Positions 1 to 23,214 of a DNA stretch of 64,000 nt are shown one piece after another (position 1 is the first letter of the stretch; every line of letters starts with the position of its first letter). The DNA comes from Georgenia sp. EYE_87 (lineage in GTDB: Bacteria; Actinomycetota; Actinomycetes; Actinomycetales; Actinomycetaceae), in assembly GCF_023148685.1 (NCBI RefSeq), contig NZ_JAHXNL010000009.1, positions 1 through 64,000 of the forward strand, given 5' to 3'. The notes beneath the pieces were generated by a model. It saw only the letters and a list, made by a program, of their open reading frames with translations. It was not told where the DNA came from and searched no databases. Made by a program: the position numbers and the translations under genes.

Positions 1-116
1 GTCGGCTCGAGCACCTGCGCGGCTCCGCCCTGGGGTTCCGCAACCTGACGAACTACATCGCCAGAGCACTCCTGGAGACCGGCGGATTCAGACCCCGACT
101 ACACCCTCAATTCTGA
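1..116 (+). pseudogene. C-terminal remnant of an ISL3-like transposase
   Basis: Reading from base 3, the plus strand encodes about 37 residues ending at a TGA at 114-116. The peptide contains HLRGSALGFRNLTNYIAR followed by LLETGGFRPRLHP, which I recognise from memory as the C-terminal tail of actinobacterial ISL3-type DDE transposases. The rest of the gene would lie left of the window, so I cannot say whether the element is complete. The fragment overlaps, antisense, the last codons of the neighbouring minus-strand gene, so that gene's 3' end lies in transposon-derived DNA. Family assignment is from pattern memory only. Confidence 0.6.
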
Positions 117-1137
117 AGAGCCGGTAAACCCGGCCCTCGGACGTGGTTACGACCGCGTCGCCCGGCTTCATACGGCTGAGAAATGCGAAGAGTTCGGTGA
201 GCTTGGCTCGCCGTTGGTGGTAGCTCAGGTGGGAGTAGTCGGCCTCCACTGCCGTGCGGAGCTCGTCGTAGCCGCTTCCCCCTTCGAGAGGCCGGAGGTG
301 CGCCGCTGCGAGGCTGACGAAACTTTCGCTCAGCCACATCGGCACGACATTGACGCCGGAGACGGCCGAGCCGCGCACAAGCCATGCCCGCGCTCCGGTA
401 CTTGCATCGGCCCCGAGCGCGTCGCGAAGTTCGTCCGCCGGTATCCGCTGCTCAGCGGACGCCCGTCCCGCGATGTCGAACTCAATGCCCTCGGCCGCAA
501 GAACCTCGCGGGGGTCGTCCGTGCGGCCTGCCTCATGCCACTGGAAGTCGGCGAGGATGGTTCCCTCCTCGCCGAGCACGCGATAGTGGTGCGGGACGTT
601 GACCGTTGCGAGGAACTCCCTGATCTCCGCGCTTCCGACGTCAATGAGGTCGGCGAGGTCCTCGTCGCTGCTCCACGATCCCTCGGCGATGAGCTCGACG
701 GCGTCCTGGACCGTCTGCCAGCCGGGCTGGGCCCATCGTTCCTCTGTCTTGCGGGACCTGGCGAATGCCCGGTAACGGCGGGACGTCACCTGATATACGT
801 CGGCGGCGTGCTCGCGAAGTCCCGTCCGACCTTCGTCCGTGATGCGCCAGCCGGCGTCGGACTTTTCGATCCATCCGATCGCCCGGAGCCAGCCCGAGGC
901 GAACCGGACGTAGGTGTCAACGCGCGGTCTGCCGCTCTTGTTGAGGCTGCGCTCAAATTCGGTGAGCTCCACACGCTTGGCCACCTCGGCGAGGACCTGA
1001 CCAGCAGGCACCGGCGCGTTCGCCTCGGCAAGAATCTCCAAGGCGGTGCGGAGCAGCAGGTCACGACGAAACTCCCTCACAGTGACTTCCTTCCCCACGG
1101 GAACCTTGCCCGCGTCATGGACCACGTTTCCCGTCAT
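88..1137 (-). CDS. Winged-helix / alkyltransferase-like DNA-binding protein, probably truncated at its C terminus
   Basis: 349 residues from ATG at 1137, five bases after the methyltransferase stop, so last in the four-gene operon. Three parts can be seen. Residues about 18-115 look like the N-terminal winged helix of Mrr-type restriction proteins (LLLRTALEILAEANAPVPAG...). Residues about 130-245 carry a stretch ending in VLAAEGIEFDIAGRASAEQR, which closely matches a stretch after the alkyltransferase-like (MGMT/ATL) domain of the nuclease at 13855. Residues about 248-349 (AWLVRGSAVSG, LKPGD-like MKPGDAVVTTSEGRVYR) resemble a domain found at the N terminus of some McrB-like GTPases. This last domain stops abruptly inside DNA that reads as transposase on the other strand, so the protein may once have been longer. 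Inferred role: recognising modified or damaged DNA for the operon. Confidence 0.6.
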   Translation of the reverse strand: MTGNVVHDAGKVPVGKEVTVREFRRDLLLRTALEILAEANAPVPAGQVLAEVAKRVELTEFERSLNKSGRPRVDTYVRFASGWLRAIGWIEKSDAGWRITDEGRTGLREHAADVYQVTSRRYRAFARSRKTEERWAQPGWQTVQDAVELIAEGSWSSDEDLADLIDVGSAEIREFLATVNVPHHYRVLGEEGTILADFQWHEAGRTDDPREVLAAEGIEFDIAGRASAEQRIPADELRDALGADASTGARAWLVRGSAVSGVNVVPMWLSESFVSLAAAHLRPLEGGSGYDELRTAVEADYSHLSYHQRRAKLTELFAFLSRMKPGDAVVTTSEGRVYRLFRIEGVVGV

Positions 1138-1142
1138 CGTGC

Positions 1143-4100
1143 TCAGGCGGTCGCGGAAGGTGCCATCGACCGGATACTCGCGGGCGCCGTCGGGCCCGAC
1201 CCTGATCTGGTCTCGTGGCGCGGTCCGTGTCCCGGCGGCGGGTCCAGCTGGGTCCGATAGGCCGTTCCCGAGTCAACGGCCTCCTGCATGGCGTCGTAGC
1301 GCTCAAGGACGAGCCGCTTCGTGCGAAATTCGCCGTGGTCGCGTTCGTCGTACTTGCGCACCACGAAGAAGGAGTCGAGCACGTGCTCAACCTCGGGTCG
1401 GTCGAGTCCGTAGATGTGGAACATGGCGGCGTCGAGCTCGGCTTTGAGCACCTCGCGACGGTTTGGAATCCACCGGAAGGGTGGTCCGTCGTCGCCCAGG
1501 TCATGGGCGTATGGGGCGATCCGATAGGAGGTGTAGGTCAGTTCGAGAACCCGAGGCTTGATGAAGTCTGCGAGGGCCGCGCTCGGATCCCAGGGAGCGG
1601 CGCTGGCGAAGGTCTTCGGTGCGGGGCACGCCAGTTGCTCCATGATCCCGTACGTCATGTGAGTCCCGCTCAACTTCTGCCTCGCAACGTAGTCACACAC
1701 CAACGACGACCAGGTCGCTTGGAGCAGCGGCGCACCATCCGGATTGGCAGGAAACGCGATCGGAAACACGTGCCCGACCGCGGAGCGGGGCAGCACGGAG
1801 GGCACGAAAGTTCGTTCGTTGCTGGCGTTGGTGATGTCGCGCCAGCCGAGAAACCATTCTCGGTCCCAATGGTCACCAACGGCAATGGTGACTGCCTCGT
1901 CTGGAAGCCAATATCGGGTGAGGGTCTCGACCGCTGGGCTGTCGTGGGCTTCTAGGCTAATTTTCGGGAGAGTGCCTTTGTTGAGGTGTGCTTGGGTGGC
2001 GTCCGCGTAGGTGGAGTAGCGGTGGTCGTAGTGGAAGAGCAGCTTGGCTTCGTAGAGGGGTAACCAGCGGCGCTCCCCGTCGTTCCATGCCCAGCCGTCG
2101 AACTGGGCGTCCTCGGCTGCGAGCTGGTCGGCGGTGCTGAAGATCTCGGAGTCGTTAGCCATGTCGAAAAGGCGGGTGAAAGCGAGCCCCCAGGGGTTGC
2201 CGCTGGGGTCGCCGTCGCGGATCAGGACGGGCTGCCGGCGATAGATTCCGAGGGTGATCTCCGCATCCGCTCGGGACCGGAAGACCGGCAGGGTGCCGGT
2301 GTTGGGGTTGAGGAGCAGAACCTCCTCTGGTGCGAGTTCGAACCGGCGTTGTGGCACGTCCTCGATGAAGCGGGTGTAGAAGGCGAATCGCACGCGGTCG
2401 ACTCGGCTTCCGCCGGTGATGCTCGTGACCGCGAAACGGAACTGGTTGTGCACGCTGGGGAAGATTTTGGCTTCGTTCTCGAAGTCGTAGAAGGCGGCGA
2501 GCCGTCCTTGGGAGAGGGTCTCGGCGAAGAACCGGGCGGTGGTGGCGTCGGTCGCGAGGCCGGTGGGGGTGATGATGCCCATGCGTCCGTCGGGCCGGAT
2601 GGTGGTGCGCATGGTCTCGGCGAAGACGCTGTAGGTGTTGACGTCGCCGCGGCCGGTCAGCGGGTAGTGGCCGGAGTTGCGCAGGAAGTGGCTCTGGCCC
2701 TCTGAAGTTCGCAATGTCTGCTGAAACTCGGCGAGAAGTGCAGGACTCCGCTCGGCGAGACCCTTGATGAGCTTCTTGCGGGAGGCAGCGTTGCCAGCCG
2801 CCGCGATCTGCGGATCGCGGGAGGCGAAGAACTCCTTCTCCTGGATCTTCACCCGTTCCCAGGGTGGGTTGCCGATGACGCACGCGAATCCGCCGTGCCA
2901 GCCGGTGTCCGTGTCGGGTGCGCCGCCGTCGGGGACCGAGAAGATGTCGGGAAACTCGAGGTGCCAGTGGAAGAAGCGATACGCGGCGGCGAGGGTATCG
3001 ACCGCACCGATAACTTCGGGCCGAAGATCGTGGATTGGAGTGGTGAGCGTCTGGTGGGTGATGGCTGCTGTACCGGCGGATTTGTGCTGGACGAAGGCTG
3101 CGCACCAGGCGTCGGTGGTAAAGCGGGCCTGTCGCATGCCGGGGGATGACTCCAGGGCAGCGAATCTGCTGGCCTGGAGGTGGACGTCGCCGAGCGAGAG
3201 TGCCCGGTTCGCCGTGATCCGGGCGGCTTCTGCACTCAGGGCTTGGTTGCCGGGGTCGATCTGCTGGACGTCGAAGAGGTCGCCTTGGCCCGTGGCGTCA
3301 CGTTCGGTGGCGTTTCGCTTGCGGAGGGCGGTGGCGTACTTCTTGTCGTCGCCCTCGATGGGGGTGAAGGCGATGTCCGGGATGCCCGCGGCTAGGAGGG
3401 CCGGCGTGGTGGCGAGGAGGGAGTTGCCGACCTTGATGTGAGCGTCGAGGAAGCTCAGCGGGTGGCCGGGGCGGAGGGCTTCGATCCAGAGGCTCACCTT
3501 GGCGAGCTCGGCGGCCATGGGATTGAGGTCGACGCCGTAGATACATTGCGCGATGACGTCGTGGAGAGCCTCTTTGAGGTGCGTGGGGCTCGGATCGGTG
3601 TCGGCACCGCGGACGGTGGCGAGGCGTTGGGCGATGCGCCGTGCCGCCGCGACGAGGAAGTGGCCGGAGCCACAGGCGGGGTCGCAGACAGTGAGGTTCA
3701 GGAGCGCTTCCTCGGGGTTATCCGACCTCTCGGCAGAGTCGAGCAGGGGGTCGAGGGTTGTGTCGAGGACGAGGTCGATCAGTCCCGCGGGCGTGTAGTA
3801 CGAGCCGCTGGTCTTGCGGTCGTTGCCGGCGAGATTCTCCAAGGTGAAGGTGCGCTCGACGGCGTCGACCCGGGGGATGAGCTCGAGGAGGGACTCGTAG
3901 ATGCTGCCGAGCTCTTCGGCGCCGAGGTGGCGGTAGTCGACCATCCGCCGGGGCTGACCCTTGGGCTGGACCACAGCGAGGCGACGAATGGCGGTCAGCA
4001 GGGACTCGTTCGCCAGAGAGAGGTCGCTCGCTACGTCGGCCGGGCCGCGTTCGAAGAGCCCACCCAGGGCAGGCAGACCGAGTGCGGGAAGTCCTCCTTC

Positions 4101-5177
4101 GCGGCCGAGGCCATCCATGACGATGGTCAGCGCCTGCCAGAGGTCACCGTGGCGCGTGCCGCGCCGCCGGGTGGCAAGGCGGCGTAGCCGGGCGGTGGCG
4201 AAGTAGTCCCGGTAGCGGCTCCGGGCCAGCGGTTCGGCGTGCGGGTCGAGGAGGGCGTCCCGGTCCTCGGCCACGAAGAGGAAGAGGAGGCGGTAGACCA
4301 GGCGGAGCAGCGCCCTGTGGTAGTCCTCCAGGCGCAGCTCGCCAGAGCTCAGTCGATGGACCAGAGCGCCGTTGTCGGGGTGGCGCAGGAATCCTGTGCC
4401 CAGTGCCTCGATGGCGTCCTGGACCCCGTCGCGGAGCAGACCCAGGGCCCGGGTGCCGGACTCGACCGCGGCCGTGCGCCATCGCTCGAGCCAGCACTCC
4501 GACGCAGGTGCGCCTTCCGACAGCGGTTCGACCCGTGACTGGTGGACCAGCATGTAGAGGACCACGAAGTCGGAGAAGACCTCGCCGTCGAACATGGCCT
4601 CGAGATCGAACTCGAGATAGCTCTGCCCGACGAGCGAGGTCGAGTCCCGGAGCAGCCGGAGGGTGCGCCCGTTGGACAGCACCCCCCACAGGTAATCGTC
4701 GCTCCGGTTGAGGAGTTCTTGGACAAGGGCGTGGGGTGCGCGGCCAGCCGCGCCGGGCACGCCAGGAGTACGCCGGTCCAGGTCGACGCCCCACCCGAGA
4801 AGGTGGATGGGCGTGCGTTCCCAGAGGTGGGAGACAGGGTATGCGGTGTCCGCGGCGCTGAGACCGCCCGCTGGTGCGGTGGGCAGACGGCCGTAGCCGA
4901 GCTCACGGAAGAGCAGGGCGAGCCACTTCTCTCTGGTGAGGCCGACCGCCGGATCGGTCGCCGACAACTTCTTGCGGGCCGCAGTGAATGAGGCCCAGGT
5001 GCCGGTGAGGTAGGACCAGGCGCGGTTGGCGGCCTCACGTACCGACTCCCCGTCACCGAGGTGGTAGTCGCCGGCGCGGAGCCCCGGCAGGTCGGAGTCG
5101 CCGGCCAGGACGCGAGCGAGAAGGTCGGGCGGTAGAAGGCCGCCCACCGACCGGATGGTGGTGAAGGCGGTGCTCAC
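1143..5177 (-). CDS. PglX/Eco57I-like N6-adenine DNA methyltransferase (DrmMI-like)
   Basis: About 1344 residues. I start it at the GTG at 5177, whose bases overlap the stop of the SNF2 helicase (GTGA); the longer open frame upstream is only read-through in the helicase. The protein has a long N-terminal region, then methyltransferase motif I DPACGSGHFL near residue 500, the associated ISSWIEAL-like VSLWIEALRPG, and the catalytic NPPW motif near residue 767, followed by a target-recognition-type C terminus. The order and size fit PglX (BREX) and DrmMI (DISARM) enzymes, which methylate adenine to mark host DNA. Its place directly after an SNF2 helicase and a DUF1998 helicase favours the DISARM-like role. 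A standalone type IIG restriction-modification enzyme is less likely because no nuclease motif was recognised in it. Confidence 0.85.
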   Translation of the reverse strand: MSTAFTTIRSVGGLLPPDLLARVLAGDSDLPGLRAGDYHLGDGESVREAANRAWSYLTGTWASFTAARKKLSATDPAVGLTREKWLALLFRELGYGRLPTAPAGGLSAADTAYPVSHLWERTPIHLLGWGVDLDRRTPGVPGAAGRAPHALVQELLNRSDDYLWGVLSNGRTLRLLRDSTSLVGQSYLEFDLEAMFDGEVFSDFVVLYMLVHQSRVEPLSEGAPASECWLERWRTAAVESGTRALGLLRDGVQDAIEALGTGFLRHPDNGALVHRLSSGELRLEDYHRALLRLVYRLLFLFVAEDRDALLDPHAEPLARSRYRDYFATARLRRLATRRRGTRHGDLWQALTIVMDGLGREGGLPALGLPALGGLFERGPADVASDLSLANESLLTAIRRLAVVQPKGQPRRMVDYRHLGAEELGSIYESLLELIPRVDAVERTFTLENLAGNDRKTSGSYYTPAGLIDLVLDTTLDPLLDSAERSDNPEEALLNLTVCDPACGSGHFLVAAARRIAQRLATVRGADTDPSPTHLKEALHDVIAQCIYGVDLNPMAAELAKVSLWIEALRPGHPLSFLDAHIKVGNSLLATTPALLAAGIPDIAFTPIEGDDKKYATALRKRNATERDATGQGDLFDVQQIDPGNQALSAEAARITANRALSLGDVHLQASRFAALESSPGMRQARFTTDAWCAAFVQHKSAGTAAITHQTLTTPIHDLRPEVIGAVDTLAAAYRFFHWHLEFPDIFSVPDGGAPDTDTGWHGGFACVIGNPPWERVKIQEKEFFASRDPQIAAAGNAASRKKLIKGLAERSPALLAEFQQTLRTSEGQSHFLRNSGHYPLTGRGDVNTYSVFAETMRTTIRPDGRMGIITPTGLATDATTARFFAETLSQGRLAAFYDFENEAKIFPSVHNQFRFAVTSITGGSRVDRVRFAFYTRFIEDVPQRRFELAPEEVLLLNPNTGTLPVFRSRADAEITLGIYRRQPVLIRDGDPSGNPWGLAFTRLFDMANDSEIFSTADQLAAEDAQFDGWAWNDGERRWLPLYEAKLLFHYDHRYSTYADATQAHLNKGTLPKISLEAHDSPAVETLTRYWLPDEAVTIAVGDHWDREWFLGWRDITNASNERTFVPSVLPRSAVGHVFPIAFPANPDGAPLLQATWSSLVCDYVARQKLSGTHMTYGIMEQLACPAPKTFASAAPWDPSAALADFIKPRVLELTYTSYRIAPYAHDLGDDGPPFRWIPNRREVLKAELDAAMFHIYGLDRPEVEHVLDSFFVVRKYDERDHGEFRTKRLVLERYDAMQEAVDSGTAYRTQLDPPPGHGPRHETRSGSGPTAPASIRSMAPSATA

Positions 5178-8014
5178 GAGGCACCTCCGCCGGCGGTAGG
5201 CAGGTAGATGTAGACGCCGAGGATGTCGGTCGGCTTCTGTGCGGTGACGACGAGTCCTCGACGTGCGGCGCCGGCCCCTGCGCGGACGCGACGGTGGCTC
5301 TGGAGCAGCGTCGCGGCGAGGTCGTCGGCCGTGGCGTTGAGGTGATCTTCGACGGCGGGGAGGGTGTCGATGACGCGTTCGGCGAGCGTGGCGGCCTGGT
5401 CGGCGGGCATGTTGGCTCCTGGAGTCGCCGCGAGAAGGCTGCTCACCGCGGCGTCGTCGAGCCATGCGGCGTGGTCGGGTGGGCCTTGGAACGCCAGCAG
5501 CTGGGCGTCCTCCGCGACGAGGGGTCTGGTTCCGGTTGCGGTGGGGATCTGCAGATGGAATCGGAACCTGACAAGCAGCAGCGTGGTGCGGGTAGTGACG
5601 GCGGTCGTGCGCATCACGCCCGCGCGGGTGGCGGGTCGGGAGTCGGGATCGCTCGCGCGGTCGAGGGCTGAGTCGAGCACGTGCCGGGCGAGAGCCTCAA
5701 CAGTGGGGTCGGTGCGGGACAGGAGGGCGTGGCCACGCTTGACCGGGAGCTGAGCATGGAAAGGCAGCGGCTCGGCGTGGCCGAGAGGGAGTGCATCGCG
5801 GACGCCTGCAGTCAGGGTGGTGGTCACGGCGGTGAATCCGTCCTTGGTCGGAGTGACGGAGGCGCCGAGCGCGCGTAGCACCTCATCAGTGAAGGCGGCG
5901 ACGTCGTCGTGCGTGCCGAGCGCGGCGCGTACGGCCGCGACCTCGGCGGCGACCTCGCCGGGGTGGATGCTCCGCTGCGCGTACCGGGTGCGGGACCGCT
6001 TCTCCTTCTCGGCTGCCGACTCCCAGTCGCGGTGGAGGTGCTCGATCTTCTCGGTCAGTCCGAGGTCGAGGGTGAGCTGCTGGGGGTCCTGTCCGCGCAG
6101 CAGCAACCCCTCCAGGAGGGCCTGGATGACGCCGTCGGACTGGTCGGGGACCGGGACTGAGACACCGGTCGCCTTGGTGATCGCGCGGTGCTTGCGGATG
6201 AGGGTGTCCAGGACGATGCCGTCGATGCGGTTGTCGGTGCCGTAGATCGTCACCGCGCGCACGATGTTGGCCCGCTGGCCGAACCGGTCGACCCGGCCTT
6301 CGCGTTGCTCGTGCCGCGTGGGGTTCCATGCGAGGTCATAGTGGACGACCGCCTGGAAGGCATCTTGAAGGTTGACGCCCTCGGAGAGGCAGTCGGTGGC
6401 GACAAGGACGTGCCGGGCGTCGGTGGCGGTGAGGTCTCGGATGCGCTGCTCGCGCTCGCTCGGGGGGAGCGTGCCGGTCACGGACGCGATGTCGACACCC
6501 TTGCCCAGCGCCCCAGAGAGATGCTCAGCGACGTACTCGGCGGTGTCGATGTAGCGACAGAAGACGATCGGGTCGTACCCGTCGGCCAGCAGCGCCTTGA
6601 CCTCCTTGGTCAGGGTGGCCAACTTGCGGTCCTGAGCCGGGCCGGCCAGGGCCTCGGCCTCCCGGGCGAGGGTGAGGAGGCGGCGATGGCGCGGGTCGCT
6701 GGTGCTGGCCTCGCCGGTGGTGTCCGCGCCCGGGATGGCGTCGAGGGACTCCAGGGCCTCGTCGTCCGCGGTGTCCAGGATGCCCGCGCGCCCCAGCGCG
6801 TCGGCCTCGGCGACGTCGACCGCCTCGGCGGAGGCGGCGCGAGTTCGCAGGGTGGCGGCGGCAGCGTGCGGTGAAGAGGCGATGGTGCGCAGCAGGGCCA
6901 GGGCCGACCACCAACGGACCCGCTGGTGGACCGTGCCGCCCGCGGTGTCGCGGACCTGCTCGCGGGCATAGGCGAGGACCTTCTCGAACAGCGCTTGGTA
7001 CGCCGGTGAGAGCGCGTAGGGAGCCTCACGGCTCTCCCGGTCGGCCGGGAACGCGGTCTCCTCGTCGAGGAAGGTACGGATGTCGGCGCGGCGACGTTGG
7101 ACGAAATGTTTGGCGAGGAGTTCCCGGTCCGACTGGCGTTCGAGGTCGAGGCTGGCCAGAGCGGGGTTGAGCAGGCCGACAAGGTTGCGGAAGCCGGCGT
7201 CCTTGCCCGAATGGGGGGTGGCGGTGACCAGCACCAGGTGTCGGTCGGGGTCCTTGGCGAGGCCCTGGAGCAGCTCGTAGCGCTGGTGTCGGGTGCGCCC
7301 GCTGCCGCCGTCGTCGGCCACCGCGGTGTGCGCCTCGTCGACGATGACGAGCTCGGGACAGCGGTTGAGGAACTCGTGGCGTCGCTGGGGGGACTTGATG
7401 AAGTCCGTGGAGACCACCACGAAGGGGTACTTGTCGAACAACGACTCGTCCATCATCAGCCCTCGCTCGAGGGATCGGACGGTGGAGGTGAGAACGAGCT
7501 CGGCGTCGATGTTGAACTTCTCGCGCAGCTCGTGCTGCCACTGCTCGGCCAGGGCTGGGCTGCACAGCACAGCCAGGCGCTGCACGGCGCCCTGCGCGAG
7601 CAGTTCGGCGGCGATGAGGCCGGCTTCAACGGTCTTGCCGATGCCCACGTCGTCGGCGACGAGCAGGCGCACCACGTCCTGGCGCAGTGCCAGCATCAGC
7701 GGGACGTACTGGTAGGCGCGCGGTTCGACGGCCAGACCGGCAACCGAGCGGAACGGTCCCGCGGAGGAGCGGAACCCAATCCGCAGTGCCGTGCGCAGCA
7801 GCGCGGCGCTGGTCGCGTCGCCCAGATCTGACGGACTCGGTGGTGGGAATGTGGCCGGGGTGACCGCCTCGATCGCTGGGAATACCCCCGCGATGTCGTC
7901 GCGTCCTCCCCCCAGCGGTCTCAGGACGAGGAAATCGGGGACGCTGTCGGGGAGCACCACCCATTCCCTGCCTCGTGTGCGCACGAGCGAGCCGGCGGCG
8001 TATGTCGTCGTCAC
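5174..8014 (-). CDS. SNF2-family helicase (DrmD-like)
   Basis: About 946 residues from the GTG at 8014, which overlaps the stop of the preceding helicase gene (GTGA). Walker A is GIGKT (ADDVGIGKTVEAG, near residue 125), motif II is DEAH (VIVDEAHTAV, near residue 225), motif III is VTATPHSG, and the C-terminal RecA lobe has ATDCLSEGVNLQDA and EGRVDRFGQ. This is the HepA/RapA-like branch of SNF2 ATPases, typical of phage-defence operons. Such enzymes translocate on double-stranded DNA rather than unwind it fully. In class 1 DISARM the SNF2 gene (drmD) is next to the adenine methyltransferase drmMI, which is the order seen here. The tight coupling on both sides suggests fixed stoichiometry with its neighbours. 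Confidence 0.88.
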   Translation of the reverse strand: MTTTYAAGSLVRTRGREWVVLPDSVPDFLVLRPLGGGRDDIAGVFPAIEAVTPATFPPPSPSDLGDATSAALLRTALRIGFRSSAGPFRSVAGLAVEPRAYQYVPLMLALRQDVVRLLVADDVGIGKTVEAGLIAAELLAQGAVQRLAVLCSPALAEQWQHELREKFNIDAELVLTSTVRSLERGLMMDESLFDKYPFVVVSTDFIKSPQRRHEFLNRCPELVIVDEAHTAVADDGGSGRTRHQRYELLQGLAKDPDRHLVLVTATPHSGKDAGFRNLVGLLNPALASLDLERQSDRELLAKHFVQRRRADIRTFLDEETAFPADRESREAPYALSPAYQALFEKVLAYAREQVRDTAGGTVHQRVRWWSALALLRTIASSPHAAAATLRTRAASAEAVDVAEADALGRAGILDTADDEALESLDAIPGADTTGEASTSDPRHRRLLTLAREAEALAGPAQDRKLATLTKEVKALLADGYDPIVFCRYIDTAEYVAEHLSGALGKGVDIASVTGTLPPSEREQRIRDLTATDARHVLVATDCLSEGVNLQDAFQAVVHYDLAWNPTRHEQREGRVDRFGQRANIVRAVTIYGTDNRIDGIVLDTLIRKHRAITKATGVSVPVPDQSDGVIQALLEGLLLRGQDPQQLTLDLGLTEKIEHLHRDWESAAEKEKRSRTRYAQRSIHPGEVAAEVAAVRAALGTHDDVAAFTDEVLRALGASVTPTKDGFTAVTTTLTAGVRDALPLGHAEPLPFHAQLPVKRGHALLSRTDPTVEALARHVLDSALDRASDPDSRPATRAGVMRTTAVTTRTTLLLVRFRFHLQIPTATGTRPLVAEDAQLLAFQGPPDHAAWLDDAAVSSLLAATPGANMPADQAATLAERVIDTLPAVEDHLNATADDLAATLLQSHRRVRAGAGAARRGLVVTAQKPTDILGVYIYLPTAGGGAS

Positions 8015-11000
8015 GGTGTGGGGTTCTCCCTGCTGGTGCCGAAGATCGATGGATGCTTGGTGACGACGGCGTGCCACGCGGTTTTGTCGTATCCGACCCG
8101 GACGACCATCCATCCGGCGTCGATCAGTCGCTCCTCGGCCTCGCGGTCGCGTTCGGCGACTGCGGCCGAGTCGTGCACCGGTCCGTCGACGAAGACCGCG
8201 ACCGGACTGCCGGTCAGGTCGTAGATGAAATCAGGCCGCGCACTTGCCTCCGGGATCCGGACCTGGGCACGGTCCGGAAGCCGGAGTCCGCGTTCGTCGA
8301 GCCAGTCGAGAAATCTGCGCTCGAGCCCGGAGTCGGCGAGGTTGGCGAGCTGATCGCGCTGCTCTGCCCGGGTGCGTCCGCCGGCGCCGGTGGTCGTCGT
8401 CGAAGTCGCCATGGTGAGGAGGAGGTCACGAATGGTGTGGCGGTCGATCTGGGCGTGGTCGAGCTGGTTGTTGTAGGAGAGCAGGCACTCGTAGCAGGCG
8501 TGCTCGCACCGTTCCCGGGCGCCGTCGGCGTGCCCGAGGTCGGCTCCGGTCTCGGGGTCGAAGTGGGCGATCATCAGCGCTTTGCGGGCGACCCTGGCCA
8601 TCGCGTCTGGTTCCGTGACGAGGCGGCGCAGCGCGCCGGCGCCACCCTCGGCGGACTCGGTCAGCAGCAGCCGTCCGCGGTGCGCGTCGTCGGGCAGCTC
8701 CTGACTCTCCAGCTCCGAATCCTCGAGCTGGAAGAGCGCCTCGGCACCGCGTTCGAGGGCGTAGCGCAGAGTCGTGGCGACTGCATCGTCCACGCTCTGC
8801 GCCAGGCGCATGACGAGAATGTTGCGGCGGTCCTCGACGTAGGGGATGACCTTGGCCTTGCGTGCGACATCTTCTGCGGCGTCGAGTGACTCGGTGTCGA
8901 CGGTCGTGTCGGTGGCCTGCTTCTCCGAGAGCCACTTTCCTTCGCCGAGGTCGAGCCAGAATCCGCGGTCGTGCGGGTTCTTGCGGCGGCGGCGTCCGAC
9001 GTTGGCGATGCGGATCATGGCGCTGTCACCGTACGTCAGATTGGCGAGCGGGCCGTCCGACGTGTCCGCGGTGAGGGCCTCGACGCGGCCGGGCCGGTCC
9101 CCGTGATCGTGAAAGCGGTAGGAAACCTCGAGCTCGAATCCTGAGCGGCGCCGTTCCTCCTCGTCGCTGGAGATCCGTTCGCGTCGCCGGGTGAACACGG
9201 TCTGCAGGCGCAGCAGGCCGTAGGTCTTGCCGCCCAGCGGCTCACCGCAGGAGTCGCAGACATCGGTGCCGACGCCGACCGGATGGTGGTAGCCGCAGGC
9301 GCCGCACCGGCGAGCGTCCTCGGTGACCGTGCCGGTGGCATCACCGGGGCTGCGGGGAAGCTGGACCCGGACGACCTCGTAGCGGGCACCCTCGTGATAG
9401 ATCAGGGCACCGGGGCCGAACTCACTGATGGCGAGGAACCGGGGTCGCTGGATGTAGTCGCCGTCCCGAGGACCACGGCCTGCCCGCCCGCCGGGAATGT
9501 ACGCGGCGAGCGGCAGCCGCGGGAAGGAGTACCCAGGCAGGAAGCCCTCGGAGGCGAGGTACCGGTAGGAGTAGAAGTCAGTCTGGCCCAGCTCGCTGTC
9601 TTCGTTACGTAGCAGCACGAGCTGGCTTCGCGCGTCGCCCGCGCGTCGCGCAGCGACATCCCGGAGCCTGCCCGGGGCCTTCGGGTCCACCGCAAGCTTG
9701 CTCTGGTCGTTGTACTCGGCCATGGCGGCGCGGTACAGGCTGCGCCACCGGTCCAGGGCCTCGTCCAGGCTCTGCGGTGCCCGGGCCACCTGGTCAGCCA
9801 CCCAGCCGTCGTACCACCATGACACCGCCTCACCAGACGCAGCCCACGTTCGCCGCAACTCGTCGAGCACGTGCTCGGCACGGTGGGTGGCCCGGCGGCG
9901 CGCGCTCTCCTCGGTCAGCGCCCGCCAGATCTCCGGCAGGATCGTCAGCGTGGGGTTCTCCCCAACGGCGTCGACCACGTCGGTGAGGCGCGAGCGCATC
10001 GACTGGTCCGTCTCGGCCAGCCAGATGGCGTGGACATGGGAACGCACCAGATCCTCGTTCCCCAGGTCAAGGCGTGGCGCGACGACCGACCCGGCCACCA
10101 TCTCGCGAGAGTGGCGGAAGTAGTAGCTGTCGTGTGCGTTGCCGGTCGCGCAGTATGTGACCACGAGCGCTGGCTGCCCGCTGCGCCCCGCGCGTCCAGA
10201 GCGCTGGGCATAGTTGGCCGGCGTAGGCGGCACGTTCCGCAGGCCGACGGCGTTGAGACTCGCGATGTCCACACCGAGTTCCATCGTGGGCGAGCAGTAC
10301 AGCAGCGGCAGCGTGCCGGCGCGGAAGTCCAACTCGCGGGACTGCCGCTCATCCTGGGGCACCTGGGCCGTGTGCTCCTTCGCCCGCAGCCCTGAGAGGT
10401 TTACGCCGAGGTCGCTGTACAGGCTCCTGAAGAACGGGTTCACGCGCGAGACGTTCTCGGCGTCCAGGCTCTTGCGGAGTGGGTCCTCGGCGCCCTTGGT
10501 GCCATCACCGGCGAGCCACCGTAGCGCCGAGGCCTTCACCCGGTAGCCCTTCTCACCGTTCTCGGTCTCGACCACGGCGGTCAGGAGTCCCGTGGTATCG
10601 AGGACTCGGAAGAAGTCGCCGATGATCTGCTGGGCGTCGTCAACGGTGAGTTTCGCTCCCACCCCGACGTCAGAGCGGCGCAGATAGCGGCCGAAGGCGG
10701 ACCTGCCGGAAACGTTGAGGTCTCCGCGGTACCCCCCGACCTTGCCGGACCGGGCAAAGGCGGTGCCCACCTGGGCGACCCGCTCGCCGTCGGCGATGGT
10801 CCATGCCCCGACCAGGTGCTGCCGCGATTCTCTGACCAGCTGATCGAAGCCCGCCTGGGTCAACGACGGCACGTCGATCGCCAGTGCGCGCCGCATCTCG
10901 TCGAGCAGGATGTGCGCGAGCTCCTCGCGCAGCTGAGGGCGGGCGTCCTGGAGGGCGGGATGTGCCCCTTCCCAGGACTCACTGTCGGCGGCGATCTCCG

Positions 11001-13254
11001 CGAGGTCGGCGTAGCGGACCTTGAGCAAGCCGGTCTGCTCAAGATTGGGCATCGTCACGCGCCAGCCGCGCTGGAGGTCGGTGTAGAGCCGGTACTCCAC
11101 CACCTCTCGCAGCGCCCGCTCGGCAAGTTCCTTGGCGGAGAACTTCGCTGCAGGGTTGGCGGCGTAGTCCGCCGTCGTCAGGCCGAGCGCCGCGGTGACT
11201 CGGCTGCCGACGATCTCGTGGGTGAGGCCTCCGGGAGCGCTGACCATCGCAGCGTGCAGCGCGCCCCGGAGCTGAGCGACCTGGACGAAGTCGTTGAAAT
11301 GCCCGGCCTGGAGCGAAGCGTCCTGGCGGTTGTCCACGAACGTGAGGAGTTTGCGCGCAGCGGGGTCGAGTGCGTCGGGGCCGAGCGCCTTGAGGGACCG
11401 GACGATGCTGGCGCTGACCACGGTGACCGCGGACGAGCGCCCCTCCTGGTCGAGCGTGGCCAACTTGGCGAAGTCACTGCCGCGGACCTGCTCATAGGAC
11501 ACCCGGCACCGCATGCAGAACGCGAAGGGAGTCGAGATGAACCAGGCCTGCAATCCATGCCCCGGCTCGGCCAGGGATCCGTCTGGCTCGAGCCAGACTT
11601 CGGCTGGGAGGTACTTCTCCTTTGACTTGATGACTTCGCTCTCGCCCGAGTCAGTCACGGTGAGCCAGTGGTCCGGCACGCGTGCCTCGCTCACAGGGTC
11701 GTGAGGCCAAGGCAGGTCGCTGGAGATGTAGAGGTACCCGGTCACGGCGTCACCGCCCGACGCGTCTCGGTCCTGGCGGGGGACGAACGTGACGTCGCCG
11801 TTGCGGGAGGTGCGAGAGACCACCAGGTACTCCTGACCGCACTCTCGGCAGAAGCCCAGAGGGAGCAGTGCCTTCTCCGGGTGGCCGGGGACACGGACCT
11901 GGTAGGCGTCGGTGATGTGGCGGGCGTCCTCCGGCTCGAGCGAGACGTAGACAGTGTCGCCCTTGGAGAGGAACTGGTGCAGACGGAAGGCGAACATTGG
12001 TCGGCCGGTCTGCGGGTCCGTCGCCTCCGAGCCTTCCCCGAGCAGAGCGCGGATGGCGGCGGCGGCCATGCCCTCGTCGGTGCCGACTATGGCGGCGAGC
12101 TCCTTGGCTGCCCGGGGGACGGTGGTGGGCTTCCTCCGGATCAGCCGATCGGTCCCCTGCTCGACGTCGAGGCCGAAGGTTGTCTCGATCCAGGCCGCCA
12201 GTGGGTCGACCGCCAGCTCGGCGTAAGTCCGAGAGTGCCCGAGCCCATGGGCAAGTGCGACCTCGACCGACAGTGCCAGCGAATCCGCTGCGACCCTAGT
12301 CAGTTCGGTGGCACGACGCAGGGACTCCCCGATGACCCGGTCGGGAGTGACCTCGGCACCGAAGAGCCGCGATGCGACGTCCGCGACCACTCGCTGCTGG
12401 TCCGCAACGGTGCCACCTGAGGCCATTGTCGCCGAGGTCCCCACCGCCTGGAGGTTGGGAGACTCGCACACGTCGCGCAGGCGACGTACCAAGAGCGCCA
12501 CATCAGCCCCTTGGCGACCGCGGTAGGTGTGCAGCTCGTCCAGCACGAGAAATCGCAAGCCTTTTGCTGCCCTGATGAGGTGCGCTCGCTCATCCGGACG
12601 CGTCAGCACCAGCTCGAGCATCACATAGTTGGTGAGCAGGATGTCCGGCGGGTCTGCCAGGATCGCGCGGCGATCGTCACTGCTCTCCTGACCGGTGTAA
12701 CGGGCGAAGGTCACCGGCTCTCCGCCGGTTGAGTAGCCATATCGCAGGAACTTCTCGAGTTCGTGGCGTTGGGAGTTCGCCAGCGCGTTCATCGGGTAGA
12801 CGATGATCGCCTTCACTCCGGGTGTGCGCTGCCCGCCGTTGGCCGCACGCTCGCGGAGCACGCTGTCCACGATCGGCACGATGTACGCAAGGCTCTTGCC
12901 CGACCCCGTGCCGGTGGTCAGGACGTAAGACTTGCCGCTGCGGGCAGTCTCGATCGCCTCGCGCTGGTGTCGGTGGAGGGTCAGCGGCCTGGTGCCTGGG
13001 TCCGTGGGGGCCTCCTTGACCCGGAAGATCCGTTCGCACTCAGCTTCGAGAAGTCCCTCAGTAACAAGTTCGGGGATCGTGCCGCCTGTCTCAAAGCTTG
13101 GGTTGAGGCTGAGCCAGGGGTCCGGCCATTGCACACCGTCCTCAAGCTGGCTATCTACAAATCGCCTAATTCGGGGATCCCGCACATCAACGAACCCCGA
13201 AGTGAAGGCTCGATAGTCGGAGATCAGCTCACGATGTACTTGAAAAACGTCCAC
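8011..13254 (-). CDS. DEAD/DEAH helicase with DUF1998 and C-terminal Vsr-like nuclease domain
   Basis: 1747 residues, first gene of the operon, GTG start at 13254 preceded by GGGGAG. Walker A TGTGSGKS lies at about 115-121 and motif II DELH at about 239-242; the second RecA lobe has ELGVDIASLNAVGLRN and QRSGRAGRSG near residue 985. A CGACG...CDSCG zinc site follows near 1310-1350, then a DUF1998 module with the cluster CEHACYECLLSYNNQLDH near 1580, as in MrfA/YprA-type helicases. The last roughly 110 residues (RPDFIYDL, VAVFVDGPVHD, AGWMVVRVGYD) look like a Vsr/PD-(D/E)XK nuclease. In DISARM the helicase (DrmA) and DUF1998 (DrmB) parts are usually separate proteins and the nuclease is a phospholipase-D type (DrmC); here all are in one chain with a different nuclease fold. 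Nuclease activity is inferred. Confidence 0.85.
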   Translation of the reverse strand: MDVFQVHRELISDYRAFTSGFVDVRDPRIRRFVDSQLEDGVQWPDPWLSLNPSFETGGTIPELVTEGLLEAECERIFRVKEAPTDPGTRPLTLHRHQREAIETARSGKSYVLTTGTGSGKSLAYIVPIVDSVLRERAANGGQRTPGVKAIIVYPMNALANSQRHELEKFLRYGYSTGGEPVTFARYTGQESSDDRRAILADPPDILLTNYVMLELVLTRPDERAHLIRAAKGLRFLVLDELHTYRGRQGADVALLVRRLRDVCESPNLQAVGTSATMASGGTVADQQRVVADVASRLFGAEVTPDRVIGESLRRATELTRVAADSLALSVEVALAHGLGHSRTYAELAVDPLAAWIETTFGLDVEQGTDRLIRRKPTTVPRAAKELAAIVGTDEGMAAAAIRALLGEGSEATDPQTGRPMFAFRLHQFLSKGDTVYVSLEPEDARHITDAYQVRVPGHPEKALLPLGFCRECGQEYLVVSRTSRNGDVTFVPRQDRDASGGDAVTGYLYISSDLPWPHDPVSEARVPDHWLTVTDSGESEVIKSKEKYLPAEVWLEPDGSLAEPGHGLQAWFISTPFAFCMRCRVSYEQVRGSDFAKLATLDQEGRSSAVTVVSASIVRSLKALGPDALDPAARKLLTFVDNRQDASLQAGHFNDFVQVAQLRGALHAAMVSAPGGLTHEIVGSRVTAALGLTTADYAANPAAKFSAKELAERALREVVEYRLYTDLQRGWRVTMPNLEQTGLLKVRYADLAEIAADSESWEGAHPALQDARPQLREELAHILLDEMRRALAIDVPSLTQAGFDQLVRESRQHLVGAWTIADGERVAQVGTAFARSGKVGGYRGDLNVSGRSAFGRYLRRSDVGVGAKLTVDDAQQIIGDFFRVLDTTGLLTAVVETENGEKGYRVKASALRWLAGDGTKGAEDPLRKSLDAENVSRVNPFFRSLYSDLGVNLSGLRAKEHTAQVPQDERQSRELDFRAGTLPLLYCSPTMELGVDIASLNAVGLRNVPPTPANYAQRSGRAGRSGQPALVVTYCATGNAHDSYYFRHSREMVAGSVVAPRLDLGNEDLVRSHVHAIWLAETDQSMRSRLTDVVDAVGENPTLTILPEIWRALTEESARRRATHRAEHVLDELRRTWAASGEAVSWWYDGWVADQVARAPQSLDEALDRWRSLYRAAMAEYNDQSKLAVDPKAPGRLRDVAARRAGDARSQLVLLRNEDSELGQTDFYSYRYLASEGFLPGYSFPRLPLAAYIPGGRAGRGPRDGDYIQRPRFLAISEFGPGALIYHEGARYEVVRVQLPRSPGDATGTVTEDARRCGACGYHHPVGVGTDVCDSCGEPLGGKTYGLLRLQTVFTRRRERISSDEEERRRSGFELEVSYRFHDHGDRPGRVEALTADTSDGPLANLTYGDSAMIRIANVGRRRRKNPHDRGFWLDLGEGKWLSEKQATDTTVDTESLDAAEDVARKAKVIPYVEDRRNILVMRLAQSVDDAVATTLRYALERGAEALFQLEDSELESQELPDDAHRGRLLLTESAEGGAGALRRLVTEPDAMARVARKALMIAHFDPETGADLGHADGARERCEHACYECLLSYNNQLDHAQIDRHTIRDLLLTMATSTTTTGAGGRTRAEQRDQLANLADSGLERRFLDWLDERGLRLPDRAQVRIPEASARPDFIYDLTGSPVAVFVDGPVHDSAAVAERDREAEERLIDAGWMVVRVGYDKTAWHAVVTKHPSIFGTSRENPTP

Positions 13255-13854: not shown

Positions 13855-16410
13855 ATGATGTGGGGGTCGGTTGTGGTCAAGGCGGTCGAGACGAGTCTGC
13901 GCGAGCTGCTCGAGGGATCGAAGCAGTACCAGGTGCCGTTGTACCAACGGACGTTCTCATGGAAGCGGGCCAACTTCGACAGGCTGTGGGACGACGTCAG
14001 TCAGCTCGTGGAGGACCGCCAGGGCAACGGAGCTGGAACGACTCACTTCATGGGTTCTTTGGTGCTGGCCCCGACGCCGAGTGTGGGGCCGGCCGGTGTC
14101 TCCCGGTACCTGGTAGTCGACGGACAGCAGCGGCTGACGACACTGACACTGCTCCTCGCCGCGATCCGTGACCATCGGGCAGAGACCGAGTCTGCCGAGC
14201 ACCGAGACCGCCTGAATGAGCAGTATCTGATCAACAAGTGGCGCGAGGGTGTGGATCGGCCGAAGGTCCTACCGACGCAGGCCGACCGAGCGTCGTACCG
14301 AGCCTGCGTCGAGGGCGGCCACGATGAGGGCTGGGCAGACGGGGTGGGCGAGGCGTACCGATACTTTCGAGGACGACTGGCCGACCACGACGATCCGGAC
14401 GACGACCACGACATCGCTCGCATGGAGGAGGCGGTCCTGTCGGGTCTGACGTTGGTATCGGTGACGACCAGCCATGACGACAACGTCCACCGCATTTTCG
14501 AGTCTCTGAACAACACTGGCCTGCGGCTGACCCAGGGCGATCTTCTACGGAACTACCTTTTTATGCGGCTGCCTACCCGCGGAGACGTGGTGTACGAGAC
14601 GCAGTGGATGCCGCTGCAGGAAAGGTTGACCAACGAGCAACTCGAGTTGCTGTTCTGGCTCGACGTCGTCCAGACCGATGAGACCGTCAACCAACGCGAC
14701 ACCTATCAGGCCCAGGTCGCACGCATGGATCGTCTGCTCACCGAGGAGGAGATCGAGGCCGAGGTAGCGCGGTTCAACCGTCTGAGCGGACTCGTCGAGC
14801 GGATCCTCAACCCAGCGAAAGAGCAGGACCCGCAGGTACGGGAACGACTGACCCGGCTCAGTTCGTGGGGGACCACGACCGTCTACCCGCTGCTGCTGCA
14901 CCTGCTTGACCGGCGGGAACGTGGCCTGGCCAGCAGTGAGGAGATCGCCTCGGCCATGCTGTACGCGGAAAGCTATCTTGTCCGTCGTGTGTTGATCGGG
15001 CGGGCGACTGCCAACCTAAACCGAATCCTGCTTCGCGCGGTCCCGGAGATCGCGGGCGCGGGTCCTGCCGACCAGGCGCTTCGAACCTTCCTGTCGACGG
15101 GGCGTAAGTTTTTCGCCACCGACGACCAGGTCCGTGCCGCGGTGAAGTCGACGGCGTTCTACTACTCAGGTCGCGCCTCCCAGCGCAAGCTACTGCTGAC
15201 ATGGATCGAGCAGACCTTCGCCAACAATGAACCCGTCGACCCGGAGAAGTGCACTATCGAGCATGTGATGCCTCAGACGATCACCTCCGCGTGGCGGCAG
15301 ATGCTCCGTCCGGATGTCGCACCGGACGAGTCGCTGGGTGAAGTCTACGACAGCCTCGTGCACACCCTCGGCAACCTAACCCTAACCGGGTACAACTCCG
15401 CCCTGGGCAATAAGCCGTTCAGCGGTAAGCGGGAGGCGTACCGGAAGAGCGGTTTCAAGATGAATCAGGAGATTGCGAACCAGCAGGTGTGGTCCCGCCC
15501 CCAGATTCTGGCCAGGGCGGACAGGCTCGCCGAGCGTATCGTGGCGTACTGGCCGGGTCCGGATCCCACGGCCGTGCAGGAACCCATGACCGAGGCCTGG
15601 GGATTGATGAATCGCGCTCTGGCCGAGCTGCCCGCCGGGACGTGGACCTCGTACAGCGCGGTTGCCCAGCTCATTGGCAGTCACCAGGTGCCGGTCGGGC
15701 AGCGGATCGCCAACCATCCCGTACCCAACGGGCACCGGGTGCTCCAGGCCGCTGGCACCACGTCGCCGGGGTTCCGCTGGCTTGACGGGGATGAGCGCAC
15801 AGAGACTCAGCGCGAGGCGTTGGAGGCCGAAGGAGTGAGCTTCGACGAAGCTGGGCGGGCCGACCCTGCCCAGCGAGTCGACGCCGACGAGCTCGCCGTC
15901 CTGGCCGGGGTAGAGCTGCTCGGTGAGGAGCTGTTGTCGCAGCCCGACGACGGCACTGGACGTTCGGAGTCCTTCCTCACCCAACTCGCCGAGAACCACT
16001 CCGAATCAACGGTCCATGGCGTGATCGCGGTGATGGACACCTGGGTTGGTCTCGGCGGGCGGTTGCAGTACGGCGAGTTCGCGGAGACGACCTGCTTCCT
16101 CATCCTCGACACCCCAGCCGGAGTGACCTGGCCCGCCGCGATCTACCCGAAGGGAAAGTTCGAGGTCGTGTTCCAGTACCTCAAGGACCGCCCACCCTTC
16201 GATGAACTCGGCAACCGCCGTGAGTTGGCGAAGCGGCTCAACGCGGTCGAGGGCGTAGAACTGCCGGAGGGCAAGCTGGCGATGCGGCCCGGTTTCACTC
16301 TCGACGTGCTCGGGACGACGAATCTGAGGCAGCGGGTGATCGAGGCGCTGGAGTGGTTCGTGGCGACGCAGCGCGAGACCGAGCAGCCAGAGGTCAACGT
16401 CCCGGTGTGA
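13855..16410 (+). CDS. GmrSD-type DUF262/DUF1524 nuclease with alkyltransferase-like domain
   Basis: 851 residues. The N terminus has DUF262 motifs YQVPLYQRTFSW and VVDGQQRLTTL (the DGQQR nucleotide-handling ParB-like motif). Near residues 460-530 is the DUF1524 HNH nuclease (CTIEHVMPQ, then LGNLTLTGYNSALGNKPF). Residues about 580-680 match the alkyltransferase-like DNA-binding domain (GTWTSYSAVAQLIG, PNGHRVLQAAG, ALEAEGVSFDEAGRA), and a further C-terminal domain of unknown type follows. GmrS-GmrD enzymes are type IV restriction systems that cut DNA with sugar-modified hydroxymethylcytosine; ATL domains bind alkylated or bulky bases. The combination suggests a nuclease directed at modified phage DNA. 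Two adjacent ATG codons (13855, 13858) could be the start; I chose the first. It is divergent from the helicase-methylase operon and probably part of the same defence locus. Confidence 0.85.
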   Translation: MMWGSVVVKAVETSLRELLEGSKQYQVPLYQRTFSWKRANFDRLWDDVSQLVEDRQGNGAGTTHFMGSLVLAPTPSVGPAGVSRYLVVDGQQRLTTLTLLLAAIRDHRAETESAEHRDRLNEQYLINKWREGVDRPKVLPTQADRASYRACVEGGHDEGWADGVGEAYRYFRGRLADHDDPDDDHDIARMEEAVLSGLTLVSVTTSHDDNVHRIFESLNNTGLRLTQGDLLRNYLFMRLPTRGDVVYETQWMPLQERLTNEQLELLFWLDVVQTDETVNQRDTYQAQVARMDRLLTEEEIEAEVARFNRLSGLVERILNPAKEQDPQVRERLTRLSSWGTTTVYPLLLHLLDRRERGLASSEEIASAMLYAESYLVRRVLIGRATANLNRILLRAVPEIAGAGPADQALRTFLSTGRKFFATDDQVRAAVKSTAFYYSGRASQRKLLLTWIEQTFANNEPVDPEKCTIEHVMPQTITSAWRQMLRPDVAPDESLGEVYDSLVHTLGNLTLTGYNSALGNKPFSGKREAYRKSGFKMNQEIANQQVWSRPQILARADRLAERIVAYWPGPDPTAVQEPMTEAWGLMNRALAELPAGTWTSYSAVAQLIGSHQVPVGQRIANHPVPNGHRVLQAAGTTSPGFRWLDGDERTETQREALEAEGVSFDEAGRADPAQRVDADELAVLAGVELLGEELLSQPDDGTGRSESFLTQLAENHSESTVHGVIAVMDTWVGLGGRLQYGEFAETTCFLILDTPAGVTWPAAIYPKGKFEVVFQYLKDRPPFDELGNRRELAKRLNAVEGVELPEGKLAMRPGFTLDVLGTTNLRQRVIEALEWFVATQRETEQPEVNVPV

Positions 16411-22800: not shown

Positions 22801-23170
22801 GACCCAGGGCGCGGAACTGCCCGGCGCCCTTGCTCGCGGGGACGTTCACCCGGTCGCGATCGGGCCGCCAACCCCCCAAGGCGTCACGTGCGTGCGTGCC
22901 GGCGGTCTGCAGCAGCGCGTCGTCCACCGTCCGGTAGTCGATCCCCGAGCCGATGAGGCCCTGGTAGTCGCGCTCAGGCAGCTGACCGGGCAGGTCGGGG
23001 TCGTTGCCGTCCGCCGTCGTGGGGACGTCGATGTGCAAGAACTGCCAGGCATCGGGGATGCCCCCCGTCCAACCGACCTGATCCAGGCGGCGCTCGAGAT
23101 CATCGCGGACGACTCGCAGTGTCTTTCCACCGGACCCGCCGACTCCGACCAGAAGGAAGGGACGAAGCAT
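19868..23170 (-). CDS. Tubulin/FtsZ-like GTPase (Tubulin_2 family)
   Basis: 1100 residues. The N terminus LRPFLLVGVGGSGGKTL has the tubulin-superfamily nucleotide-binding start, and the tubulin signature loop appears as SSIAGGSGSGAVLDVCDVI near residue 180. The size far exceeds FtsZ (about 400 residues); a long helical C-terminal region makes up the rest. Large tubulin-like proteins of this type have been described beside von Willebrand A proteins and were proposed to act in membrane remodelling. Here it lies between the vWA protein gene and the coiled-coil membrane protein gene, which fits that description. The ATG at 23170 follows a weak TGAGG ribosome binding site, 44 bases after the vWA stop. 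The substrate (GTP) and polymerisation are inferred from the family. Confidence 0.82.
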   Translation of the reverse strand: MLRPFLLVGVGGSGGKTLRVVRDDLERRLDQVGWTGGIPDAWQFLHIDVPTTADGNDPDLPGQLPERDYQGLIGSGIDYRTVDDALLQTAGTHARDALGGWRPDRDRVNVPASKGAGQFRALGRVISLSQLSRIDNAVREARRRMTGAEVTGELQRLTEKFGGKARTTAPAPEVVVVSSIAGGSGSGAVLDVCDVIRALPDKWASESVGILYCPDVFDDIEESLRRGVRANSLAALAELMSGYWNTQGPTESTSELFQAAGISTGASRRLGPRYPFLVGARNEAVTYKTQNDVYRAMGRSIASWVSSAALQDSMAGYLHAQWAATAGAVTDHLRLHPSGTETPFTALGSSRVGLGRDRFRSYASEHLARSVVEVVLERHERLRARDDERPSMQLIQEQASDAFGAFLVQTGLDERGEDCNNIIDALQDQAALTAAGRALGAEVLAAVRASAPAKGFTTDEARIRVRNEVLDRRSRFSADQRAARERQAVAWVAEIQRKVADALADAIAKHGGRVATVMLRRLVKEVDEVGEELRSEAEHRRRWAANLEDEISGVLGTGRSVTEDEIESAVDRAVQTLEWEQEAEVRDLAVLLIPDLRSNFLEPLTEAVEHAVDGLAVERTGGLDGRGSVISTWPTGDIVPGRLKPAPNEFLLESVDTFPQILRDVIARTVAGETPLVSRATAERQLLLGAADGERQQLVTIDQPWVPADTRLHNSAMQSATRATISVASSSSAILRRATGWATRPGTAIGNYLDEGLRGYLAEESTSPSERADRLRTFEGQLLAALNAGAPLVSINAAVLTRVHGGSSVTYQQNFSEIPLPERSAARESFVRTLQGRGQYGPKVEQSFSDSEAGFIDIFTVLGEPYEPVVFDSLMRPIASDWGARKASVEGREEFWRWRRARSLQESLPLHPETLAAAVKGWFVAGLLEQVKQQPPLALYVPASSGGPAGFATFDDPLLVGTSEGPEALPAVLESLVLALLRVNTQESLEPMRPYLRLLDLGTSESGSLPRELKEWIETGQRAQDAGRDARTVTERQAAARQRIEGVADAFDRHFKALEARHDVLGYPGSFDLRHLMRAVLRDLHRVVVDYRPDADRAFL

Positions 23171-23214
23171 GAAGAAACCTCAGTTCAGTGATTGGGGTTA
23201 AGGACAGGAGTGGG

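Follow-up and report, generated by a model that had tools for sequence, protein, structure and literature searches.

A probable ARMADA type I operon and an insertion-split McrB gene in Georgenia sp. EYE_87

Gene content and organization of the operon

The window analysed here comprises 64,000 nucleotides of Georgenia sp. EYE_87 (positions 1-64000 of contig C38; NZ_JAHXNL010000009.1), whose genome of 4.35 Mb is 99% complete and distributed over 38 contigs. It opens with four long open reading frames (ORFs) on the minus strand (88-1137, 1143-5465, 5174-8113 and 8011-13254), which encode, in the order of transcription, a YprA-family helicase with a DUF1998/MZB part, an SNF2 helicase, an N6-adenine methyltransferase and one half of a McrB-like protein. 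The first three assignments are backed by Pfam, NCBIfam and PADLOC. A reading of the letters without database searches (the sequence-only reading) had proposed a four-gene operon at 88-13254, and the ORFs and start codons confirm it. The SNF2 and methyltransferase genes probably begin at the GTG codons at 8014 and 5177, both of which overlap the stop of the gene before as GTGA, and a gap of 5 bases separates the methyltransferase stop from the start of the McrB half. Position 1 of the window is also the contig start, so the operon is cut off there. The first three genes most probably represent an ARMADA type I anti-phage system that was once followed by a McrBC pair, whose McrB gene was split by an ISL3-family insertion.

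ARMADA is abundant in Actinomycetota, and its type I starts with YprA, which carries a Vsr nuclease on its C-terminus and is followed by a BrxHII-like and a PglX-like protein (Bell et al. 2025 preprint, PMC12458937; this and the other papers are cited here for excerpts of their texts). The sequences listed in the preprint include WP_108720193.1 for ARMADA I. The Georgenia operon has the same order of YprA, BrxHII-like SNF2 protein and PglX-like methyltransferase, and its YprA protein shares the CxxC modules, the long helical extension, the DUF1998 canopy and the C-terminal Vsr-like nuclease. Compared with these excerpts the core shows no evident difference; it lies at the end of a contig, next to the split McrB gene. 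With the SNF2 alignment as query, a genome scan yielded at least 593 relatives, of which the best 80 were kept, and counts based on them lean to close, mostly actinobacterial relatives. In 78 of these 80 loci the YprA, SNF2 and methyltransferase genes follow each other in this order on one strand, whilst the other two gave no methyltransferase match. This recurrence documents that the gene order is not due to chance.

Domain architecture of the three core proteins

The YprA protein contains DEAD, Helicase_C and MZB/DUF1998 domains (Pfam). Its architecture is that of a superfamily 2 helicase with an interrupted RecA2 fold, a helical extension, an OB-CON-DUF1998/MZB canopy and a Vsr-like C-terminus at about residues 1640-1737. 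Structures were predicted from alignments of 40 of the 80 kept loci for the middle part (mean predicted local distance difference test score 85.2) and for the C-terminal 698 residues (84.9). In the middle model a long insert breaks the RecA2 fold, and the listed RecA-type matches, which align about 150 residues, are spread mostly over model residues ~143 to 773. All 79 alignment rows contain the two CxxC pairs C469/C472 and C580/C583. CxxC pairs of a beta-barrel inserted at the RecA2 start and a further RecA2 insert are characteristic of ARMADA I, and both the pairs and the insert are present here; the barrel fold itself is unmatched. A MarR match was not among the listed fold-search matches of the YprA models, an absence that is no evidence in either direction.

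The C-terminal model has helices within model residues 58-186. Its predicted DUF1998 part resembles MrfA (6znp; Z 11.8, root-mean-square deviation 5.5, 230 aligned residues) and DrmB (7s9v; Z 8.8, deviation 4.7, 270 aligned). The last domain (model residues 591-688) matches Vsr (1cw0; Z 8.1, deviation 2.6, 92 aligned, 28% identity), and D1675 and D1690 within it are present in 77 and 69 of 79 rows. The prediction thereby points to a Vsr-type nuclease fused to the YprA C-terminus, as in ARMADA I.

The methyltransferase contains Eco57I and N6_Mtase domains (Pfam), and its DPACGSG and NPPW motifs are conserved in an alignment of 74 rows (NPPW in 73 of 73). Within its first 440 residues, no column with a conservation of at least 93% holds a lysine. 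Because this N-terminal region lacks a strongly conserved lysine, the C-terminal domain of YprA is the nuclease candidate of the system.

The SNF2 protein is matched by the PADLOC models PDLC02853 (1103.5 bits), DrmD (249), BrxH (200) and HmaA (198). PDLC02853, which is labelled DpdE, also recognizes the SNF2 proteins of three other ARMADA I loci (678-1074 bits), and its score on an ARMADA II equivalent is 135 bits. The model may in fact represent ARMADA I, and the DpdE label seems too narrow.

Phylogenetic placement

In the YprA tree of 18 rows, 12 helicases from such operons are located on one side of a branch with a support of 100 in the Shimodaira-Hasegawa-like approximate likelihood ratio test (SH-aLRT), and two ARMADA II and four Druantia helicases on the other. 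The window helicase pairs with that of the Nocardioides plasmid pNOCA01 (100), whose operon is the nearest relative on a plasmid. In two of the 12, Chroococcidiopsis and Natrinema, the SNF2-methyltransferase pair precedes the helicase, an arrangement that has been reported for cyanobacteria and archaea (PMC12458937). The tree was built without DrmA and without a fragment, read in the wrong frame, of the MrfA-like protein encoded in the window's genome. Their terminal branches (10 for DrmA, more than 6 for the fragment) made a first tree unusable, in which two changes instead of one were required for the 12 ARMADA I rows. The SNF2 tree sets 10 ARMADA I rows apart by a branch with a support of 100 and unites the four DrmD rows (99). 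It was rebuilt without L025 and L026, retains one ARMADA II row and replaces an earlier version with a cut ARMADA II row (branch 6.4) that mixed the groups. The trees do not include Acinetobacter L020, which lacks an annotated helicase gene and whose match is broken into 4 pieces. Judged from these sequences, the window helicase appears to belong to an ARMADA I clade distinct from ARMADA II and Druantia, while DISARM is set apart via the SNF2 tree. In the methyltransferase tree, four DrmMI rows, identified by their position beside drmD in reference DISARM loci, form one side (100), and the window enzyme pairs with that of Nocardioides (96).

Insertion into the McrB gene

The fourth gene, which the sequence-only reading had taken for a DNA-binding protein, turned out to be the N-terminal half of an insertion-split McrB. 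It has an Mrr_N match (Pfam), aligns with the McrB-like protein of Nocardioides and also holds the start of a domain common to intact McrBs. ORF 88-1137 runs on to position 88 and reads its last residues from insertion-sequence bases. McrC (PF10117) has one match genome-wide, located at the start of contig C37 after an AAA_5 ORF that represents the GTPase half of McrB. In alignments with the uninterrupted McrB of Flavimobilis (L030), the half in the window covers residues 12-336 and the half on C37 residues 336-703. Both contig starts end in the same ISL3-family terminal sequence, and the next 8 bases past the insertion end in the window are the reverse complement of those in C37 (Table 1). 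Duplications of 8 bp are usual for ISL3-family elements. The shared insertion-sequence ends, the matching duplication and the alignment of both halves to one Flavimobilis McrB document that an insertion split the gene. The window start and the end of contig C12 share 127 identical bases; because the element is thus repeated, the assembly most likely breaks at the insertion. An ISL3-family transposase is annotated in three of six listed plasmid matches, the other three being unannotated there. IS1380 with a 4-bp duplication had been considered and was dropped, as the plasmid annotation gives ISL3.

A McrB GTPase and McrC are hence encoded in the genome, but the interruption makes their function doubtful, and the McrBC arm is probably lost or inactive in this strain. 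The reading frame of the GTPase half (L016:33-1238) is uninterrupted from an ATG that lies within the insertion end, and a short McrB form translated from it is possible. Beyond McrC on C37 (L016), a PP2C-type phosphatase gene (5454-6467) overlaps the gene of a 645-aa protein without Pfam match.

The association with McrB was counted in the 66 loci with at least 2.5 kb of downstream sequence; 14 of the 80 were left out, 12 with too little downstream sequence and two without methyltransferase match. McrB lies directly 3' of the methyltransferase in 15 of the 66 and somewhere downstream in 24. L045, whose overlap exceeds the 300-base limit, is not counted as adjacent. McrC then follows within the distance limit in 14 of the 15, and the fifteenth (L099) also has McrC, overlapping further.

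Distribution

A tblastn search with the helicase gave 70 plasmid records in which 80% or more of the protein is covered, and the carriers include Deinococcus radiodurans MP1, Roseomonas, Thermus, cyanobacteria and a Campylobacterota plasmid. The nearest named loci to the window operon are those of Flavimobilis and Cellulomonas. The SNF2 gene reaches an E-value of 1e-60 or better in only two of 59 genomes, a set made up of the window's own genome and those of its kin, and the locus of the second is cut by a contig end. The spread among kin is patchy and mobile-looking.

Comparison with related systems

The three-gene arrangement is already named, and a DISARM-like cassette of YprA/DUF1998, SWI2/SNF2 and PglX tied to McrBC is already in print (Bell et al. 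2024, PMC11090510). Uninterrupted examples of the McrBC-linked cassette are found in Nocardioides pNOCA01, Flavimobilis marinus L030 and Cellulomonas sp. L099, the last two as loci of five genes, whereas McrB is broken here. An alkyltransferase-like (ATL) domain, which the McrB of the window contains, goes unmentioned in the excerpts of that paper. ARMADA type II (ArmABCD of E. coli) has homologues of all three core proteins, but its order is SNF2, methyltransferase and YprA, its YprA belongs to another branch, and it contains a further helicase, described as GajB-like with a RelE domain (PMC12458937). According to experiments in the same preprint, type II guards E. coli without killing the cell, and its defence needs all four genes and the NPPW motif of ArmB.

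The sequence-only reading had recognized a compact class 1 DISARM in the operon. The relationship as such is genuine, since SNF2, adenine methyltransferase, helicase and DUF1998 parts are shared (Pfam, NCBIfam, PADLOC), and its statement that a phospholipase D gene is missing agrees with our scan of window and C37 proteins, which covered part of the neighbours and revealed no DrmC. A DISARM variant with fused drmA-drmB and lost drmC could furthermore invoke the PADLOC scores for DrmMI (189.5 bits) and DrmD given above, and the methyltransferase tree, in which ARMADA I is not one group. We nevertheless consider this variant very unlikely. In class 1 DISARM the helicase and DUF1998 parts are divided between drmA and drmB, drmD and the methyltransferase stand first, and drmC is often added (annotated in two of the four reference loci). 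In contrast, a single 1747-aa protein of the window holds both drmA- and drmB-like parts, so that separate genes are not present. PADLOC DrmA scores at best 58 bits on it, the helicase groups with ARMADA I, and DrmD stands apart in the SNF2 tree. Moreover, pNOCA01, typed as a conjugative plasmid, carries a class 1 DISARM (drmD, methyltransferase, drmA, drmB) near its ARMADA I-McrBC operon, and these are two systems, not one. The suspicion that standard models miss the operon was borne out, as its proteins remain below the NCBIfam cut-offs for DrmD (282 of 610 bits), DpdE (178.7 of 500) and the best BREX PglX model (55.1 of 400), which also speaks against a class 1 DISARM or BREX assignment. 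Its supposed status as a new variant was not upheld, because the first three genes belong to ARMADA type I, a system of identical gene set that already had a name.

The remaining alternatives interpret single proteins differently. A methyltransferase that cuts by itself as a type IIG/IIL enzyme, with the helicases as accessories, would agree with matches of type IIG models of up to 132 bits and with the annotation of the Caballeronia orthologue as MmeI. This explanation appears improbable to us given the lack of a strongly conserved lysine in the N-terminal region over 74 rows and the conserved helicase pair and Vsr-like domain that accompany the enzyme. A Druantia-type system would be suggested by the best PADLOC match of the helicase, DruE with 318.5 bits, and Druantia type III does encode a long YprA-family helicase. 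However, four Druantia helicases, each measured against its best-matching DruE model, reach 773-2692 bits, the values of two ARMADA II helicases (350 and 312 bits) resemble that of the window protein, and the YprA tree separates the four Druantia proteins. The partner in Druantia type III is DruH instead of SNF2 protein and methyltransferase; DruH matches in the gene preceding the helicase in all three Druantia loci tested, and none is listed for eight window proteins scanned. The nuclease domains of Druantia type III are of the phospholipase D type (PMC12458937), whereas that of the window resembles Vsr, and membership in this system seems extremely unlikely. Hardly any credence can be given to the restriction part of a Dpd system (7-deazaguanine DNA modification) with the SNF2 protein as DpdE. 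Its argument is the PDLC02853 score, but the curated NCBIfam DpdE model remains far below its cut-off, DpdA has no match in the 99% complete genome, and the same PADLOC model recognizes three other ARMADA I SNF2 proteins.

Several observations weigh against the assignment to an ARMADA type I system once followed by McrBC. The experiments in the excerpts of the preprint refer to type II only, whose fourth gene ArmD is absent here (PMC12458937). The Vsr match is modest and tied with that of a homing endonuclease (3r3p, Z 8.4), and Vsr is absent among the 50 matches listed by Foldseek for the C-terminal model. The BrxA-like insert, a defining domain of the ARMADA lineage, is unconfirmed: helices sit after RecA1, and BrxA is not among the listed fold-search matches, an absence without evidential value. 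The trees are quick ones with SH-aLRT support only and with long-branch warnings, and the ARMADA I label of the reference rows stems from the operon context, with L010 showing the first two genes only. The methyltransferase tree breaks up ARMADA I, with the Caballeronia enzyme beside DrmMI, suggesting that this gene may swap, and the archaeal enzyme weakly beside ARMADA II. Regarding the insertion, its boundary is uncertain by a few bases, which C12, C38 and C37 share beyond the chosen position, and the duplication accordingly measures 4 to 8 bp; with the boundary 2 bases further, at least its inner 4 bp remain. C38 and C37 are linked by duplication and homology, not by reads, and McrB is an optional partner of the core.

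A possible mode of action

A mode of action can be proposed by analogy with ARMADA II (PMC12458937), DISARM (PMC9142583) and the YprA relative DruE, a helicase-nuclease that loads on 3'-tailed DNA (PMC13192584). The PglX-like enzyme would methylate adenine in a host recognition sequence and thereby mark self DNA. The SNF2 translocase and the YprA helicase may act on unmarked DNA or on infection-type structures such as ends and single-stranded tails, which the Vsr-like domain at the YprA C-terminus would cut. The expected outcome is direct restriction of phage DNA and not suicide of the cell. DNA with foreign modifications, the opposite case, would have been left to McrBC. The data themselves document the gene content and order, the family placement, the predicted folds and the insertion with its duplication; methylation specificity, cleavage, the self/non-self rule, this division of labour and the loss of McrBC function are all inferred.

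Neighbouring genes and a shared ATL-like domain

The coordinates of the operon and the adjacent features are compiled in Table 1. The GmrSD-type gene is a neighbour and located outside the three-gene core.

Table 1. Features at the start of the Georgenia sp. EYE_87 window
Feature	Position	Strand	Evidence
YprA-family helicase-nuclease, 1747 aa	8011..13254	-	Pfam DEAD, Helicase_C, MZB; tree; fold searches
BrxHII/RapA-like SNF2 translocase, 946 aa from GTG at 8014	5174..8014	-	PADLOC, tree
PglX/DrmMI-like N6-adenine DNA methyltransferase, 1344 aa from GTG at 5177	1143..5177	-	Pfam Eco57I, N6_Mtase; conservation; tree
N-terminal half of McrB-like protein (Mrr_N winged helix, ATL-like domain 412-729)	123..1137	-	Pfam, alignments
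ISL3-family insertion sequence end (transposase C-terminus + terminal repeat), also contig end	1..122	+	C12 identity; plasmid annotations
Target-site duplication beside insertion sequence	123..130	.	Reverse complement of C37:128-135
Divergent GmrSD-type (DUF262/DUF1524) restriction protein, ATL-like domain 15589-15912	13855..16410	+	Pfam GmrSD_N, GmrSD_C, DNA_binding_1

The ATL-like domain, which is of the O6-alkylguanine-DNA-binding type, is shared by the two proteins: residues ~137-242 in the McrB half have their homologous counterpart in residues ~579-686 of the GmrSD-type protein (pair E-value 3e-15). A profile of 10 members of this domain matches Alkyltransferase-like protein 1 (3gva, 2.8e-5) and the chain 2kif (4.5e-5), which was deposited as O6-methylguanine-DNA methyltransferase and which we take to be an ATL-type chain. 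PF01035 is matched by all 10 profile members at E-values up to 1 (best 1.9e-8). Across 149 genomes of the order, among them that of the window, the domain was detected at 12 places in 11 genomes at an E-value of 1e-8 or better, a threshold below which stand-alone alkyltransferases may fall, and all 12 lie in McrB- or GmrSD-type proteins. The 10 places outside the own genome comprise nine GmrSD-type proteins, two of them only ~26% identical, and one of the McrB type. Searches of the open literature of PMC gave no paper on such a domain in McrB or any other restriction enzyme, and the occurrence of the domain in both the split McrB and the GmrSD-type gene is a novel observation. The shared module suggests, on sequence grounds, a reader of altered bases. 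A tentative and rather doubtful extension is that McrB and GmrSD, two unrelated modification-dependent families, recruited the same ATL domain for reading altered guanine in phage DNA, and that they would form one complementary array together with ARMADA.

Three consecutive large genes of 932, 1100 and 941 aa follow on the minus strand (17070-26040), one without Pfam match, one with Tubulin_2 and one with VWA_2; none matches PADLOC at an E-value of 0.01, and they possibly represent a tubulin/VWA conflict system. A 387-aa protein (26348-27511, plus strand) with a GmrSD C-terminal domain and no N-terminal match is possibly encoded by a second, partial GmrSD-type gene. The G+C content amounts to 62-72% in window positions 1-30000 and to 71-79% in the remaining window, a dip that is consistent with an acquired defence island. 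No tRNA genes were found in the window.

Implications

The locus provides an actinobacterial example of ARMADA I beside McrBC, the accessory half of which has been broken by an insertion. The defence class noticed in a cold reading of the sequence did not receive its published name until 2025, and the models of PADLOC 2.0 label the parts of ARMADA I as DpdE, DruE and DrmMI. If the complementary array outlined above were true, ARMADA would attack DNA without the host mark, and the ATL-armed type IV enzymes would attack foreign-marked DNA.

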